A stretch of 47,793 bases of DNA, taken from Nitrospira sp. GTDB lineage: Bacteria > Nitrospirota > Nitrospiria > Nitrospirales > Nitrospiraceae. A program made the position numbers and the translations under genes. How positions within the stretch are numbered: the stretch's first letter is position 1; each line of letters opens with the position of its first letter. The notes beneath the pieces were generated by a model that saw nothing but the letters and a program-made list of their open reading frames with translations, was not told where the DNA came from and did not search any database. This document shows, in pieces, positions 1,755 through 14,382 of this stretch. The stretch is from positions 1-47,793 of the forward strand of contig JARDZZ010000011.1 of NCBI GenBank assembly GCA_029240595.1, read 5' to 3'.

Positions 1755-2117
1755 ATGAGCAAGATTCTTGTCGTTGACGATTCGTACGCCGAGCTCCAGG
1801 TGATTGAGGGAGTGTTGAAAGGGGCAAATCATACCGTCGTGTCCTTCCCCAACACGGAGAAGCTCGAAGACAAGGTGGTTGGTGAGAAGCCGGATTTGAT
1901 CGTCATGGACGTCGTCATGCCGGGCCGTAACGGTTTTCAGGCCTGCCGCGATCTCAAGAACGACGACCGGACGAAGAATATCCCCATCATCCTCTGCACC
2001 TCCAAAGGCAATGAAAGTGACAAATTCTGGGGTCAGCAGCAGGGTGCCAATGCCCACGTCGTCAAGCCGTTCAAGGGTGACGAATTACTGGCGGCCGTGA
2101 AACGGGTGTTGGGATAA
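1755..2117 (+). CDS. CheY-like response regulator (PilG/PilH type)
   Basis: KILVVDDS, VMDVVMPGRNG, CTSKGNESDKFWGQQQGANAHVVKPF. Confidence 0.9.
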   Translation: MSKILVVDDSYAELQVIEGVLKGANHTVVSFPNTEKLEDKVVGEKPDLIVMDVVMPGRNGFQACRDLKNDDRTKNIPIILCTSKGNESDKFWGQQQGANAHVVKPFKGDELLAAVKRVLG

Positions 2118-4641: not shown

Positions 4642-7600
4642 ATGAGCTCCGAACTGGACCGTCAGGGCCTCCTCGACATCTTTATAATGGAAGCCGCAGA
4701 AGCGCTCGCTGCGCTCTCGGCGGCCGTGAATCCTCCCGGCGACAGCGTGCCGAGCGCCTCAGAGCTCCAGGATCAGTATGTATGGGCGCACAAAGTTCGA
4801 GGGGCTTCCGGCATCTACGGCTTTACGGGCCTCTCGCTGTTGGGCGAGCTCCTCGAATCGACACTCGAACAGTCTACGTCCATCGACCCGGCTCTGTGGC
4901 TCAAGACGGTCGGTGCGTTGCGCGGCATGGTCGAAGCGTTTCAATCGCAACTGGATGTCATCAAGCAGGGCGGCCAGGAGGACCCATCGGTGAGTGCCCA
5001 TTGGAAGAAAGAGGTCATGACCCTGTTGCCGGCTTCCTCAGATGCGTCCTCCGAGGATGGTTCGAAAGAGCTGGGCACGGACTACCTGGTTCCGACCATC
5101 GATGCCGAAGTGCTGTCCTATTTCGCCCCTGAAGCCGATGAATATCTCCAGACATTGGAGGTCCTGACCAACCGTCTCAAAGAAAATCCGGGGGACGCAG
5201 AGACCATCCAGGCGCTGTACCGGACCGCCCATACGCTCAAAGGGTCTGCACACACCATCGGGTTCAAGGTCATCGGCGACATTGCGCATCCGATTGAATC
5301 CTGCATGATCGCGGTGCGCGATGGACACATCCCCGTGTCGACAGCGCTCCTGGCGACGATCGGAGATGCTGCGGCTCTCATTCGCCTGGTGATGCGCCGG
5401 GACGAAAGCCATCTCGCACAATTGCGCCAGGGCGTCCCGGGTGTCACCCAGACCTTGCAACAGATCCAGAGCGGTCAGCCCGTTGGTGCACCGGCGCCGG
5501 CCATCGCGCATGCACAGGAACCACCCGTCGCCCAGGTTGCGACGGCTGTGTTAGAGCCGTCGGTTGTCACGGATCAGCCCGCCGCTGCGGTGCCTGCTCC
5601 CTCATTGACCGATGAGTATCTCATGCCGCAGCTCGACCCGGAGGTCTTGTCCTATTTCGCGCCCGAAGCACAGGAGTATTTGGAGTCCTTGGAAGCGCAA
5701 CTGCTTCGCCTTGAAAAAGAACCGCAGAATCCGGATTTGATCAATCAATTGTTCCGCACCGCCCATACGCTGAAAGGGTCTGCCTATACCGTCGGCTTCC
5801 AATCGATCGGCGACCTGACGCATTACATCGAAGATTTTATGGGTGCCGTGCGGGAAAGCCGGATCAAGGTCCTGCCGGGGCATACCGACGTCCTCCTGCG
5901 ATCGGTGGATGTCGTGCGCCTATTGATGCGCCGTGATCCCACGCTGACGGGAACCGTTCGTCAGCGGTTTGCCGCGGCGATGACCGCGCTCAAACAACTT
6001 GAACAGACGAAAACGGTCGAGACCGTTGTCAAAGCGGCTCCTGTTCAGCCGATGCCCGAGCCGGTCGTCGAACAGGCTGCTCAGCAACCCGAGCCTGAGC
6101 AGGGCAAGGTGAGGGATGCGGCCGTTGAGGAACGGGAAGTCATTCGCGTCAGCCGTGATCGGCTGGAACGGCTGCTCAACCTCGTCGGCGAATTGGTCAT
6201 CGGTCGTGGGCGGCTCGAGCAGCGTCTCAGTGTCTTGGAGCAGCTGTCGCAGCAAGTCTTGGCTTGCAAAGTGCGATTGACAGATTCTGTTCGCTCGTTC
6301 GAAGAGAAACACACCTTTACACTTCCCACCTCCGCCGGCGGGACAGCGGATCAGGCAAGGACGGGTAGTGCCGCGGCGGCCTTCCAGGGACTGAGCGATT
6401 TTGGCAGCCTCGAATTCGACAAGTACGACGACTTCAACATTCTGGCCCGGCGCATCAGCGAAGTCACGGCGGACATCTCCGAGTCCATGACGCAGTTGAG
6501 CGGATCCATCCGGCGGTCGCATGAGGACATGAGCCAACTGCAGCAACTCACACTCGGCATGCGGGATGAGATCGCCCGCGCGCGTATGGTGCCGATCGGC
6601 ACGCCGTTCACACGCTTCCGCCGGGCGACTCGGGAAATGGCAAGGGCGACGGGTAAGGAAGTCACCCTGGTCACCTCCGGAGAACACACGGAAGTGGACA
6701 CCGGCGTCGTCGAGCGTCTCGTCGATCCGTTGGTCCATCTGGTTCGCAATGCCGTCTACCATGGGATTGAGCCGGCGGCGTTGCGCGTCTCCAAGGGAAA
6801 GCCCGCGGCCGGCACGATCTATCTCCACGCCTCTCATCGAGGCAATGCCGTTCTGATCGAAGTGGAAGACGATGGGGCCGGTCTCGATATCGACAAAATC
6901 CGCGCGAAGGCGGTCGAGCGCGGCCTTGTGCGTTCTGACATCGCCAAAAACCTTCCCGAAGGCGAGGCCATCAAGTTCATCTTTCTTCCCGGCTTCTCGA
7001 CCGCCGAGCAGGTGGGTGATCAGGCGGGCCGCGGCGTCGGCATGGATGTCGTCAAACGGGTCATCGAGAGCATGAATGGCCATATCGACGTCGAATCCAT
7101 CCGCGGTGTCGGTACCAAATTTACGCTCCATTTGCCGCTGACGCTGCTCATCGCGACTGCTCTGATGGTCCGTTCCGGAGAGGAACGTTACGGGATTCCG
7201 CTGCCGAGCGTCCGTGAGGTGACGATGCTCACGGCCGGTTCCCTCCAACAGATGGGCGAGCGGTCGATGCTGCATCTCGGAGACGAAGCCGTGGACGTGC
7301 AGCCTCTGCAGCAGCTGATGTATCGGAACGGCTCGGCCCGGGTGGAAGTGGGAAAACCGGTCGTCATTGTGCGCACCGGCACGGGGCCTGTCGGCTTGGC
7401 CGTGGACGAGTTGCTCGGCCGGCAGGAAATCGTCATTAAGCCGATCGGTGCGCTTAAATCATTGGAGCGGTCCTGTTTCGGCGGGGCCACCATCGATCCC
7501 GAAGGGCGCGTGGTGCTCGTGCTCGATCCTGCACGGCTGATCTCGGGTGGCGAGCAAGCCGGCTCGCAGTTGGAAACACTGAATGAGACGACCGCAGGTA

Positions 7601-8034
7601 CCGACACGGAGACGCCGTTCCAAGAACCGATGCCTCAGCCGACCGTCGAGCAAAAGATTCTCCTGATCGACGACTCGTTAAGCATCCGAAAGTTCGTGGG
7701 GCGCATGCTGGAAACCGCAGGCTATGAGGTCGATACCGCCGTGGACGGCGAGGAAGGACTTCGCAAGGCGTCCGCGAAGAATTACCGGCTGATCCTGACC
7801 GATCTCGAGATGCCGAAGCTGAACGGATATGAAGTGATTCAGGCGCTACGCAGCAGATCGCAGACGCAACAGACGCCGATTATCGTCATGACGACGCGTG
7901 CCGGTGACAAACACCGCCAGATGGCGCTGAACGTCGGCGCGAGTTCGTATATCGCCAAGCCGGTTGAAGAGCGGGCGCTGATCCAGGAGCTGGAACGCTG
8001 GATCGGACAAGAGTCGCCCGCACGGAAAGCCTAG
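4642..8034 (+). CDS. Hybrid chemotaxis histidine kinase CheA (ChpA/PilL type): three Hpt, H-ATPase, CheW-like, C-terminal receiver
   Basis: Hpt motifs AHKVRGASG, AHTLKGSAHTIG, AHTLKGSAYTVG; HLVRNAVYHGIE; EVEDDGAGLD; GRGVGMDVV; C-terminal ILLIDDSLSIRKF...LTDLEMP. Confidence 0.95.
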   Translation: MSSELDRQGLLDIFIMEAAEALAALSAAVNPPGDSVPSASELQDQYVWAHKVRGASGIYGFTGLSLLGELLESTLEQSTSIDPALWLKTVGALRGMVEAFQSQLDVIKQGGQEDPSVSAHWKKEVMTLLPASSDASSEDGSKELGTDYLVPTIDAEVLSYFAPEADEYLQTLEVLTNRLKENPGDAETIQALYRTAHTLKGSAHTIGFKVIGDIAHPIESCMIAVRDGHIPVSTALLATIGDAAALIRLVMRRDESHLAQLRQGVPGVTQTLQQIQSGQPVGAPAPAIAHAQEPPVAQVATAVLEPSVVTDQPAAAVPAPSLTDEYLMPQLDPEVLSYFAPEAQEYLESLEAQLLRLEKEPQNPDLINQLFRTAHTLKGSAYTVGFQSIGDLTHYIEDFMGAVRESRIKVLPGHTDVLLRSVDVVRLLMRRDPTLTGTVRQRFAAAMTALKQLEQTKTVETVVKAAPVQPMPEPVVEQAAQQPEPEQGKVRDAAVEEREVIRVSRDRLERLLNLVGELVIGRGRLEQRLSVLEQLSQQVLACKVRLTDSVRSFEEKHTFTLPTSAGGTADQARTGSAAAAFQGLSDFGSLEFDKYDDFNILARRISEVTADISESMTQLSGSIRRSHEDMSQLQQLTLGMRDEIARARMVPIGTPFTRFRRATREMARATGKEVTLVTSGEHTEVDTGVVERLVDPLVHLVRNAVYHGIEPAALRVSKGKPAAGTIYLHASHRGNAVLIEVEDDGAGLDIDKIRAKAVERGLVRSDIAKNLPEGEAIKFIFLPGFSTAEQVGDQAGRGVGMDVVKRVIESMNGHIDVESIRGVGTKFTLHLPLTLLIATALMVRSGEERYGIPLPSVREVTMLTAGSLQQMGERSMLHLGDEAVDVQPLQQLMYRNGSARVEVGKPVVIVRTGTGPVGLAVDELLGRQEIVIKPIGALKSLERSCFGGATIDPEGRVVLVLDPARLISGGEQAGSQLETLNETTAGTDTETPFQEPMPQPTVEQKILLIDDSLSIRKFVGRMLETAGYEVDTAVDGEEGLRKASAKNYRLILTDLEMPKLNGYEVIQALRSRSQTQQTPIIVMTTRAGDKHRQMALNVGASSYIAKPVEERALIQELERWIGQESPARKA

Positions 8035-9070: not shown

Positions 9071-10387
9071 ATGCCGAAGATCCTGGTCGCAGATGATAGC
9101 ATCGCCGTTCGCAAGGTCGCCGAACGGCTGCTGACGGAGGCCGGGCTAGGTGTGACATTGGCTGCCAACGGTGAAGAAGCGTTGGCGTTGCTCGCGCGAG
9201 AAGTGCCCGATCTCATCGTATCCGACGTCATCATGCCCGACAAAAGCGGGTATGAGGTCTGTGCGTTCGTCCGCGGGCAGGCCGCCCTGGCCAATACACC
9301 GGTCCTGCTGATCTCCGGCATCGTCAACGACGAAGTGACGAAGCAGGCGGAGTCCTGTCACGCCGATGGCGTGCTCAAGAAGCCGTTCCAGGGCACCTCC
9401 CTCAAAGACCGGGTCCTCGAACTTCTCGGCAAGAAGCAGAGCGCACCTGCGCCGGCTCCGGCCAAAGCCGCCGCCACATCCGCAGCGCCCACCGCACCAG
9501 CCAACGCTCAAGTTCTTGACGAGCAGGGGCCTGCGGCGCGCCAGGCGATTGAGAAGCTGAAGCAAATTGAAGAGGAGCTTCAAAACGAGCGCCGGCAGAC
9601 GTCGCTGCTGACGCAGCGGATCTCGCAACTCGAGACCCAGACAGGACGGATCAAAGAGCTGGAAGCGCAGTCTGGCCGCCTGAAAGAGCTCGAGGTCCAA
9701 GCGGCACGCATGAAGGAACTGGAGGTGCAGTCGGGCCGCATGCGGGAGCTCGAAGCCATGCTCGTCGCCGAGCGTGAGCAGACCGCCCAGGCGAAGAAAG
9801 CCGTTACGGAATTGACGGCGAACCTGCAACGTTTGAAAGAGCTCGAACCCTTGTTGAAGCATGAACGTGAACAGAGTGCACAATTCAAGAAACAAGTTGC
9901 CGATCTGCAAAGTCAGGCCGCCCGAGTCTCGGAGCTGGAAGGGGCGCTCCAGAAAGAGCGCGCGCTGGCCGCCCAGCAGACGCAGCGCATCACTGAAATG
10001 CAAAAATCCGTCGGTCGGGTTCAAGAGCTCGAGGCCGCGTTGAATGCCGAGCGTCAAGCCGCGACGCAGCTTGTCCAACAGATGACGACCATGGAGAAGG
10101 CCGTGAATCGTTCCCAAGAGCTCGCTCAGCAATTCGCACGGGAACAGCAGCGCGTCGAAGAACTCACCCGCCGGCTAGCCGATCAGGAAACGGGAGGGAC
10201 CAAAGCGAAAGAAGTTCAGCAGCTCTTGGAGACCGAGCGAGAGCGCAATGCAGTGTTGGCCCGCCGCGTCTCAGAGACGGAAATGGCCGCTCAGCAGGCG
10301 ACCAGACGTTTTGAAGAAATGGCCAAGAAGTTGGGCGAGATCGCGGGCTTGGCTTCCCAGCTGGGGAGTGGATCCAAGCGCGCGTGA
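9071..10387 (+). CDS. Response regulator receiver fused to a long repetitive coiled coil
   Basis: KILVADDSIAVRKVAERLL...IVSDVIMPDKSGYEV...LKKPF, Ala/Pro-rich linker, then repeated R.KELE...-type coiled coil. Confidence 0.88.
   Translation: MPKILVADDSIAVRKVAERLLTEAGLGVTLAANGEEALALLAREVPDLIVSDVIMPDKSGYEVCAFVRGQAALANTPVLLISGIVNDEVTKQAESCHADGVLKKPFQGTSLKDRVLELLGKKQSAPAPAPAKAAATSAAPTAPANAQVLDEQGPAARQAIEKLKQIEEELQNERRQTSLLTQRISQLETQTGRIKELEAQSGRLKELEVQAARMKELEVQSGRMRELEAMLVAEREQTAQAKKAVTELTANLQRLKELEPLLKHEREQSAQFKKQVADLQSQAARVSELEGALQKERALAAQQTQRITEMQKSVGRVQELEAALNAERQAATQLVQQMTTMEKAVNRSQELAQQFAREQQRVEELTRRLADQETGGTKAKEVQQLLETERERNAVLARRVSETEMAAQQATRRFEEMAKKLGEIAGLASQLGSGSKRA
9647..10108 (+). repeat. 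In-gene tandem repeats: four 10-aa units (last overlaps next array) then four 31-aa units
   Basis: RIKELEAQSG/RLKELEVQAA/RMKELEVQSG/RMRELEAMLV then RMRELEAMLV..31../RLKELEPLLK..31../RVSELEGALQ..31../RVQELEAALN..31.. Confidence 0.8.
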
Positions 10388-10533
10388 GGCGTCTGCCCGT
10401 CTTTACCCAGCAGGCCGAGGTACGAATGCGACAAGCTGTCCGATTTTTCCTCGAACATCCGCAGGTGACGCCCGTGACTCCCCGATGTTCCGGCTGCTCC
10501 GGCTGGTCGCTGTATAGGTGAGGGAGTGCATCC

Positions 10534-11463
10534 ATGTCGGGCGATACATCAGATGAATTTCAAAATGAACTCGTCGAATTGTTCGTTCAAGAGGCGCATG
10601 AATGGTTGCAGAACATTCACGTCGCCCTCGACGAGATACAGCAGGGGCCCCCGCCTGAGCGTCACGCCGTCTTGATCAATACGCTGACCGCCGGCGTGAC
10701 CAATCTCGGCGGATCCGCTGCCACAATCAATCTTCCGAATGTCGAACAGGCGAGTTTTGCCGCGCTGCCTTTTATTGAGGCCATTAAAGATCCAACCAAA
10801 TCGTTTTCCGTGCAGGATTTTCTCTCACTGTGCAAACAGCTCGGGCAGATCCACACGGCATTGACCAACGCCACCGGCGTGTCCTTCGACGCGGAGGCTG
10901 AAAGCGAAACGGTCGAGGCGGTTCCAGGATTGTCGCCGACCGAGTTCGTTGAGACGTTGCGGAAGCTCCAGTCGACACAGGAGACGACGGGACCATTGGA
11001 GCGAAATCTTATTAAGACCATGATCGATCAGATGGAAGGACAGGTACAGGCTGGTGTACAGCACGTCGGCGTCGATGTCATTCAAGGCTATCTCGACCGG
11101 ATGTCGGAGTCGGAAGAGGCGTTTGTCCAGGTCGTGGACGAGCAGCTGCCGACCTTGACGGCTCAATTGTCTTCACTTGCCGATCCAGCAAGCCTGCCCG
11201 GCGGCGTGCTTGAGGCATCCATTCGAGAAGTCACCCAATTGAGAGCCGAAGCCCAACAGGTCAACGTCACTCCGGCCATGACCTTTTTCAGTGGGTTGCA
11301 CAGCCTCTTATCGGTCCTCGCACAACATCACATGAACCTGGCGGCACCGCGGGTGCAGGCCATTACCGACAGACTGGGCGTCGTCCGGAAGCTGATTCAT
11401 CAGTGGGTCGAACGAGGCAGAAGCGAACGGGCGGCGATAGGCCAGGCGCTGCCAGCGAGATGA
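10534..11463 (+). CDS. Hpt-like (His-less) domain protein, chemosensory-locus associated
   Basis: FVQEAHEWLQNI...VTNLGGSAATINLPNVE aligns by eye with the CheA Hpt (FAPEADEYLQTL...AHTLKGSAHTIGFKVIG); His replaced. Confidence 0.65.
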   Translation: MSGDTSDEFQNELVELFVQEAHEWLQNIHVALDEIQQGPPPERHAVLINTLTAGVTNLGGSAATINLPNVEQASFAALPFIEAIKDPTKSFSVQDFLSLCKQLGQIHTALTNATGVSFDAEAESETVEAVPGLSPTEFVETLRKLQSTQETTGPLERNLIKTMIDQMEGQVQAGVQHVGVDVIQGYLDRMSESEEAFVQVVDEQLPTLTAQLSSLADPASLPGGVLEASIREVTQLRAEAQQVNVTPAMTFFSGLHSLLSVLAQHHMNLAAPRVQAITDRLGVVRKLIHQWVERGRSERAAIGQALPAR

Positions 11464-11487
11464 CCTTCGTCGTCTGCTTGTCTTGAC

Positions 11488-13608
11488 ATGCCCCACGGCC
11501 GATTGCATCCTGAATTGATCCGTCATGAACCAGGTGGGCGGGCCTCAATCCGCCGCATTGAGATGGAAGAACGACGAGCGACAGATCTGTACCGCCGGAC
11601 AGAGCACACGCTGACGTCCGTGGCCTCGGCGATTCAACGCCAAGATCCGCTTGACCTCAAGGAGTTGTCTGCACTGGCCCGGGAGATTGCAGAGTCGATC
11701 GCCCGCAACGATCAGCTGGTCGTGCAGGCGTTGGCGGGACCGAGCGGCTCCACGTTGATCACCAATCTGATCAACGTGAGCATCCTGGCGACGAAGGTGG
11801 GATCCGGCCTCGGATACTATGGGGAAGAACTGCAACGCCTCACGTTGGCCGGACTGGTTCATGACATCGGGTTGTTTGCCGTCCCGCAATCCGTGGTGAC
11901 GAAGTCGGGGAAGCTGACCCCCGAGGAACGCACGCTGATCGAGCAGCACCCGGAATTGGGCCATCAGTTGGTCAAAAAGCTCGGCGGAGAATGGCAGTGG
12001 CTCGCTCTGGTCGTTCGGCAGGCTCATGAACGCTCCAATGGACGGGGCTATCCGAACCGGTTAAAAGCCCGCGACATCCATGAGTTTGCTCAGATCATCG
12101 GCGCCGTCGATGTGTTCGATGCTCTCGTCACGCCCCGTCCGTATCGTCGCCGGTTTTTTCCGCATGAGGCCGTGCGCGAGTTACTGGTCGTCGAGCGGTC
12201 GGCCTTTCCGCGTGAAATCATCAAGGCGCTGGTCGAACAGCTTTCGGCCTATCCGCTCGGCACGCTGGTGCAGCTCACGACGGGTGAAGTGGGATCGGTC
12301 GTGGGAATCAACGTGCAGTTTCCCCTGCGTCCCATCGTCGAGGTTGTGGCCGATTCCACTCCCGGAAACGGAGCGGATAAACGCGAGATCGACCTCAGTC
12401 TGTCGCCGCTGGTATCCATCATCGAAACGGTCGAGTCCCCCGACGTTGGACGGGTGTCGTTTCGCTCCGACGCGCTGGCTGACCGACGGTCTAAAACGCT
12501 TCCCACGGTCTCCGATCAATTTACGTCCCTGCTCGAGAATCTGGATGCGCTGGCCAGCGCCATTCAGGGCGTAGTCGAGTCACGCACCTCGTCGGCATCC
12601 GACACGGGGCCGCCCGAGACGCGGGCCGACAATGGGTCTATCGGTCGTTCAACCGAGCAGGATGTCTTGGATGCCAGCTTTGAGAAAGAAGTGATCGGTC
12701 TTTTCGCGCTCGAGGCACATGAGTGGCTGGCTCAGATACACTCGGCCTTGAAGCGGCTCAGCGAAGGTTCGAGCGGAACGACGAGATCTAAGCTCTCCGG
12801 CATTATGCTGCAGGGATTGAGTAATCTGGCCCGATCCGCAGCCACCGTGCATTTGACCGGCATCGAGGACATGGCCTTGGGGCTCCTTCCCGTCCTTCAT
12901 GATGTGGGACGCCACGAACCCCGGGCCATGGCTGCCGGGTTCGCCTCGCTCAAGTCTGGCCTCGATCGGATCGCCGCTGCGGTTCGTCAGGCCGAAGGAA
13001 GGCCGCCGGCCGATGAGCGTCCCGAATTCAGTGGAACGGAAGTGACCAAGACTTCCTCTCCCGTCGCCCCCCTGCGAATGACCACTGGCGCATCATTATT
13101 GAGCGCATTGCGTGACCTTCAGCATGTTCGATCCCGATCGGTCCAGCCGACTCGTGATGTGCTGGATGGGGTCATCCGTCGGGCGGAACAGGAAGACGGG
13201 GAGGTGACGGTCGACGGCATCCGTCGCATTTTGGAAGAGCTGGATCGGATGGATGAACGATTCGTGGACGAAGTCGGCCGACGGATTCCTGTCGTGACCC
13301 GCATTCTGGCCGAGTTGCAGAAAGATGACAGCGATTTTGTCACGTCTTCGCAGCTCACACCCATCCTCGACCAGGTTGAAGCCCTCCATGATGCGTCAGA
13401 AACGGTACAAGCCGGCATGATCACGATGTTCCTGCAAGGCCTTCGAGCATTTCTGATGGTGGCGGCATACCGGAAAACTCCGACGCTGGCGAAACGGCTT
13501 GCAGCGGTTGAGTCAAGAATCCAGGCGTTGGTGCCCATGGCTGAGCAATGGGTGAGTATCGGGCGCGTGGAAAGAGCGGTGATTGCAGAGATCTTACCAG
13601 TCGGCTAG
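11488..13608 (+). CDS. HD-GYP-like domain protein fused to His-less Hpt-like module (start may be ATG 11563)
   Basis: GLVHDIGLFAVPQSVVTKSGKLTPEERTLIEQHPELG, HERSNGRGYPNRL, VDVFDALVTPRPYRR; C-terminal half resembles the 10534-11463 product. Confidence 0.8.
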   Translation: MPHGRLHPELIRHEPGGRASIRRIEMEERRATDLYRRTEHTLTSVASAIQRQDPLDLKELSALAREIAESIARNDQLVVQALAGPSGSTLITNLINVSILATKVGSGLGYYGEELQRLTLAGLVHDIGLFAVPQSVVTKSGKLTPEERTLIEQHPELGHQLVKKLGGEWQWLALVVRQAHERSNGRGYPNRLKARDIHEFAQIIGAVDVFDALVTPRPYRRRFFPHEAVRELLVVERSAFPREIIKALVEQLSAYPLGTLVQLTTGEVGSVVGINVQFPLRPIVEVVADSTPGNGADKREIDLSLSPLVSIIETVESPDVGRVSFRSDALADRRSKTLPTVSDQFTSLLENLDALASAIQGVVESRTSSASDTGPPETRADNGSIGRSTEQDVLDASFEKEVIGLFALEAHEWLAQIHSALKRLSEGSSGTTRSKLSGIMLQGLSNLARSAATVHLTGIEDMALGLLPVLHDVGRHEPRAMAAGFASLKSGLDRIAAAVRQAEGRPPADERPEFSGTEVTKTSSPVAPLRMTTGASLLSALRDLQHVRSRSVQPTRDVLDGVIRRAEQEDGEVTVDGIRRILEELDRMDERFVDEVGRRIPVVTRILAELQKDDSDFVTSSQLTPILDQVEALHDASETVQAGMITMFLQGLRAFLMVAAYRKTPTLAKRLAAVESRIQALVPMAEQWVSIGRVERAVIAEILPVG

Positions 13609-13860: not shown

Positions 13861-14382
13861 ATGTCAAAACTGGTGAAGGGCTGGCGCAATGAGGACATTC
13901 ATGCCCAAGCCCGACATTACGTCCGGACCTATATTCTTCTCCCTTCAGGGTTCCTTGGACTGATGTGCGTGCTGGGGGGAATCGGGACGCTTGGTTATCA
14001 GCTCATTGCATCGGCCACCTATACAATGATGACGTTCATGACGAGCTCCGCGCTTCTGTTGCTCGGCGGACTCTGCGGGTGGTTGCAGACACGCTACCAT
14101 CGATATCTCTTGGAGACGGTTCCCGATGTGTTCGCCGCTCGGATGCGCAGCGCAGTCCAGCGATCACACCGAAAGGCCAAAGCCGGCTCCACCATTCCTC
14201 CCATCGTCCATCGGGGCCGCAGCCTTATCCCGGTGGCCTATGTGTTGGGATGCGGGCTGCTGTTGTCCGCGTCAGGCTGGGCCATCATGCAGGGGGCGAT
14301 GGACGCAGTGCCGGCGATCCTGATGCCCTGGGCCGGATTCTATTGGAGCAAACTGTTTTTTTGGCGGGGAATCGTCAACTAG
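13861..14382 (+). CDS. Hypothetical multi-pass membrane protein
   Basis: Complete ORF with several hydrophobic segments; no family recognised. Confidence 0.6.
   Translation: MSKLVKGWRNEDIHAQARHYVRTYILLPSGFLGLMCVLGGIGTLGYQLIASATYTMMTFMTSSALLLLGGLCGWLQTRYHRYLLETVPDVFAARMRSAVQRSHRKAKAGSTIPPIVHRGRSLIPVAYVLGCGLLLSASGWAIMQGAMDAVPAILMPWAGFYWSKLFFWRGIVN

Follow-up and report, generated by a model that had tools for sequence, protein, structure and literature searches.

Two paralogous Hpt-like proteins without the phospho-accepting histidine, one fused to a degenerate HD-GYP domain, in a conserved Nitrospira chemosensory operon

Results

A chemosensory locus that closes with two related proteins

The window analysed here is the whole stretch of 47,793 nucleotides that makes up positions 1-47,793, forward strand, of contig JARDZZ010000011.1 of Nitrospira sp. 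assembly GCA_029240595.1. Within it two adjacent open reading frames, at 10534..11463 and 11488..13608, encode proteins of 309 and 706 amino acids that we term A and B; these genes and their parts, like the CheA and receiver genes below, lie on the + strand. A consists of a His-less Hpt domain followed by a C-terminal helical domain; B comprises a degenerate HD-GYP domain, a beta domain, a linker, a pseudo-Hpt domain and a C-terminal helical domain. Upstream lies a CheA (4642..8034) in which sequence and domain scan reveal three His-bearing Hpt domains and a receiver; the presence of several Hpt domains together with a C-terminal receiver (Pfam scan) is a trait of Pil-Chp-like systems. The domain scan also finds a CheY/PilG-like single-domain receiver (1755..2117) and a receiver (9071..10387) whose long tail is repetitive, rich in Glu and Gln and, as read from the sequence, likely to form a coiled coil. 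The three receivers listed in an earlier, sequence-only reading of this DNA are thus real, and the two encoded outside CheA are candidate partners for A and B.

Nearly all loci that are long enough to display the full set have the gene order Tll0287-like - receiver - CheW - MCP - CheA - CheW - CheW - receiver - A - B - small protein; save for the small protein downstream, A and B are the closing genes of an operon that is syntenic across Nitrospira. The Tll0287-like protein (PF11845; 902-1708 in the window) has a CxxCH haem motif and is encoded directly upstream of the receiver, a place that such a gene occupies in many loci; it is possibly a sensor for the MCP. The small protein (13861-14382), which has a weak Tetraspanin match and a sequence that reads as membrane-spanning, has counterparts downstream of B in most loci that reach this far.

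An Hpt fold in A, repeated in the tail of B

Residues 12-73 of A match Pfam Hpt with an E-value of 1.3e-4 and a score of 22.5 bits, which falls slightly short of the 24.6-bit cut-off, and besides this sub-threshold match Pfam and NCBIfam returned no named family for A. Profiles of A and B were built from many orthologues. Compared profile to profile by hhalign, the N-terminal region of A pairs with both Hpt2 and Hpt3 of the neighbouring CheA at 96.6% probability (E ~5.6e-10), and the A profile matches the P1 domain of T. maritima CheA (1TQG, E 6.7e-7; 2LD6, E 2.5e-7), the P1 phospho-His aligning with T56. The AF2 model of A (mean pLDDT 85, pTM 0.55) places four helices, at 4-36, 41-64, 68-83 and 93-114, in this pseudo-Hpt domain (residues 4-115; 10543..10878). 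When the whole A model was compared with the PDB by Foldseek, nothing matched at E <= 0.001; the TM-score to rice HPt was 0.60.

The remainder of A, residues 130-309 (10921..11460), is a second conserved helical domain whose profile matches designed four-helix bundles (OR38, E 7.5e-4; BRIC2, E 5.2e-6). No significant hhalign match was obtained between this domain and the Hpt domains of the local CheA; it is possibly a second, very degenerate Hpt-like bundle.

A is 29% identical to residues 398-704 of B over 311 columns (99.8 bits, E 3e-28), and the homology between A and the C-terminal half of B that had been read from the two open reading frames is thereby borne out: A and the last ~310 residues of B are paralogues. 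The relationship extends over both domains. The pseudo-Hpt domain of B (residues 396-505; 12673..13002) matches that of A with an hhalign probability of 99.9% and CheA Hpt3 with 94.8% (range for Hpt2 and Hpt3, 94-95%), and the C-terminal helical domain of B (residues 530-706; 13075..13605) matches A 130-309 at 100% (E 2.8e-47). The AF2 model of B superposes on 1tqg over 105 columns with a TM-score of 0.77 (by target), at an E-value of 0.51 that is weak for this whole-chain search, the structure-match table printing no query residues for the hit. With T. maritima CheA P1 matched in both sequence and fold, and helices placed by AF2, the four-helix Hpt fold proposed for these modules holds, as does their likeness to CheA Hpt2 and Hpt3 (profile-profile probability 94-97%).

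A tree of the modules sets the A proteins apart from the majority of B tails, the pattern that an old duplication should leave, and deeper lineages carry one module, with no HD-GYP fused to it; this is consistent with a single ancestral module having been duplicated. The two copies in genomes G213 and G219 group with each other (support 80/93), where a second duplication or gene conversion is possible.

Loss of the phospho-accepting histidine

The His of the CheA motif AHTLKGSA aligns with T56 of A (codon 10699..10701) and S445 of B (12820..12822), and the Lys that follows it with G59 and A448 respectively, so that the replacement of the one and the loss of the other, both claimed in the sequence-only reading, stand. 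His occurs at the acceptor position in 0/158 aligned A and B modules. The 116 A proteins have T (99), A (8), M (4), S (3), I (1) or N (1) there, and the 42 B tails T (31), S (8), N (2) or A (1). As a control from the same loci, His is present in 97/97 CheA Hpt3 and 80/82 Hpt2 domains, and all three CheA Hpt domains of the source genome retain it. The loss of His from the A and B modules is permanent and fixed among orthologues.

Conservation in A is highest at the former active-site helix and at helix 1, not at the C-terminal domain, and the 10-residue window of lowest entropy, VTNLGGSAAT, is exactly the former active site. The site is thus constrained for something other than His phosphotransfer, which argues for a retained binding surface and not for decay. 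The two copies may differ in their binding: where A has G60, the Gly of HxxKG immediately ahead of the conserved Ser-Ala, 40/42 B modules carry Lys or Arg, a substitution that may hinder docking of a receiver on B.

A degenerate HD-GYP domain in B

Residues 35-251 of B (11590..12240) form an HD-GYP domain (Pfam HD_5, E 6.8e-28; PmGH, 4mcw, E 1.9e-16) which a tally of its ligands reveals to be degenerate; AF2 strands mark a beta domain just after it (residues 255-316; 12250..12435). The PmGH metal ligand H189 is replaced by N93 (11764..11766), with N in 99/99 homologues that have a residue there; K225 by L129 (11872..11874), with L, I or V in 99/99 such homologues; and the metal ligand H276 by A179 (12022..12024), with A in 93 and V in 6 of 99 homologues. 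Substituting alanine for H189, H276 or K225 leaves PmGH with essentially no PDE activity (PMC4159591). H221, D222, H250, H277, D305, the GYP and R314 (PmGH numbering) are kept, the retained set thus including the HD pair, the GYP and the c-di-GMP-contact residues. With five of these, H221, D222, H250, H277 and D305, some metal could still be bound. B is probably a c-di-GMP-binding protein that does not hydrolyse its ligand.

Two other HD-GYP proteins of the source genome carry HDIGK and HHE, so the catalytic loss, fixed among homologues, is specific. Among stand-alone relatives of this domain from deeper lineages, H189 is already Asn or Ser and H276 mostly Glu, which places the catalytic loss, probably, before the fusion to the pseudo-Hpt; in that comparison the H189 column of the canonical HD-GYPs is out of register, and for these the motifs just given are relied on.

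In locus L080 (10921-14004) the B orthologue is 1027 residues long; its HD-GYP and pseudo-Hpt parts are preceded by an N-terminal extension whose sequence resembles that of an AAA ATPase (Walker-A-like GEIGCGKT). In the source genome a second copy of the degenerate HD-GYP (L190, contig C141, 7901-10239), ended by the contig edge, comes after another Tll0287-like gene and an AAA_22 ATPase, with pilT/pilU ~10 kb off on the same contig. In L193 (4420-11297) a stand-alone degenerate HD-GYP (9221-10486), adjoined by an AAA_22 ATPase, lies amid polysaccharide export genes (Poly_export, Wzz-type kinase, O-antigen ligase).

Distribution and likely output

A is present in 43/47 sampled genomes of the family. 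Nearly all of the 80 loci listed by a genome-collection search as carrying A are titled Nitrospira or Nitrospirae; among them single exceptions are titled Omnitrophota and Nitrosospira, and may be misbinned. In one Nitrospira subclade B stops after its HD-GYP part and A is kept.

One CheA match, the operon CheA, was obtained from the source draft (85% complete) and from each of two close relatives with near-complete assemblies, G149 (one contig) and G155 (five contigs, 99% complete), and no flagellin match was found in any of these three. Flagellin appears in only 1/7 congeners, G189, a genome with a second CheA as well, and PilT and PilU-like ATPases are present in 8/8 genomes examined. From a single CheA, no flagellin and PilT/PilU we infer that the chemosensory system most probably controls type IV pili.

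Discussion

What had been described from the letters of the sequence as a duplicated, His-less Hpt is just that, but the account was incomplete, both the HD-GYP half of B and residues 130-309 of A having been overlooked; and since B carries, in addition, an HD-GYP domain with degenerate catalytic residues, the functional reading changes. We propose, at about even confidence, that A and B together make a non-enzymatic docking and sensing hub of a type-IV-pilus-type array, A holding a receiver and B sensing c-di-GMP. A would retain the Hpt fold and active-site helix of a CheA-derived ancestor, with Thr in place of His, and through them would bind at least one receiver of the locus, most likely the stand-alone one at 1755, without exchange of phosphate; it would keep the bound receiver close to the array, in the way that FimL holds PilG. 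B, an A-like module on a catalytically dead HD-GYP domain whose nucleotide contacts are kept, would bind c-di-GMP unhydrolysed and couple that signal to the array. A more specific version, which we put forward tentatively and think rather doubtful, is that the dead HD-GYP senses c-di-GMP and relays this through the dead Hpt to the array receivers, the level of the messenger gating output with neither phosphotransfer nor hydrolysis.

Such a module might instead serve to obstruct. A could occupy the surface of a receiver or of the kinase and block phosphotransfer, in the manner of AHP6, which lacks the His and inhibits a phosphorelay (PMC5853337); the strict conservation of the pseudo-active-site helix of A would suit such an inhibitor, but two His-less modules and a fused HD-GYP in a conserved operon look more structural or integrating, and we regard this as unlikely. 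A phosphate sink requires an acceptor residue; with no His, that version of a receiver-binding role is the least likely. The acceptor could be T56 itself, given Thr in 99/116 A proteins, Thr or Ser in 39/42 B tails and the Thr/Ser Xpt domains known in ChpA (PMC12632253), yet some orthologues have Ala, Met, Ile or Asn at the site and the Lys after the His position is lost, making such a 'Tpt' highly improbable.

Alternatively, the modules might make no contact with receivers and shape the array by dimerising or by binding CheA, CheW or an MCP. Strict operon linkage and the second conserved domain beside the pseudo-Hpt speak for such a structural component; a peak of conservation at the former active-site helix and helix 1, and not in the C-terminal domain, speaks against it, and we judge it improbable. 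That A and B are decaying relics without function we scarcely credit: catalytic residues have indeed been lost from both types of domain, but the proteins are intact in many species, in a conserved operon and with a strongly conserved active-site segment, and A is kept even where the B tail has gone.

Nitrospira are nitrite oxidisers of soils and wastewater. If the docking and sensing hub proposed above is correct, their chemosensory locus would be a meeting point of surface sensing and c-di-GMP, and FimL, the best-described His-less bacterial Hpt scaffold, would gain a counterpart in a second phylum and in a more elaborate form. The arrangement also makes testable a general question, whether degenerate Hpt domains still bind receivers after phosphotransfer has been lost.

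Our literature searches found no description of a His-less Hpt in Nitrospira; the earlier opinion that the architecture belongs to no described family is nonetheless mistaken insofar as FimL (PMC3019171) and the Xpt domains of ChpA (PMC12632253) are precedents. The FimL protein of P. aeruginosa carries Gln at the acceptor site of each of its two Hpt-like domains (PMC3019171); together with ChpA it recruits PilG to the pole (PMC10519157). Like A and B it is, by its description, a stand-alone, CheA-related, Hpt-like chemosensory protein without the acceptor His; its partner is a CheY-type regulator (PMC3019171, PMC10519157), as is proposed for A. By analogy, FimL is the closest functional model for A. 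FimL has Gln and works with FimV and CyaB, whereas A and B have Thr/Ser, lie inside a che operon and are duplicated, one copy being fused to an HD-GYP. The FimV core (TIGR03505) gave no match in 8 genomes, implying that the route by which FimL is anchored is missing there or takes another form. For that reason, and with its second domain only suggestively Hpt-like, A was not filed as a FimL.

The ChpA Xpt domains, part of a type-IV-pilus chemosensory system, are Hpt-type domains whose acceptor residue is Thr or Ser (PMC12632253), as in A and B; they lie in cis in the kinase, whereas A and B are separate proteins and the local CheA has His in all three Hpt domains. AHP6 of Arabidopsis is likewise a phosphotransfer protein without the His, but it is an inhibitor in the plant cytokinin relay, an unrelated context. 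For the other half of B the nearest solved non-hydrolysing HD-GYP is DvhD of Desulfovibrio, a c-di-GMP-binding sensor without PDE activity (PMC13090378) to which the AF2 model of B is similar in fold and which makes binding of c-di-GMP by B plausible. DvhD has lost the HD pair (SQ) and both His of HHE, whereas B keeps the HD and the second His; and DvhD is a membrane protein with PAS, whereas B lacks such domains and has a pseudo-Hpt tail. Precedents thus exist for an Hpt without its His, and what is notable in addition in A and B is the fusion to a degenerate HD-GYP.
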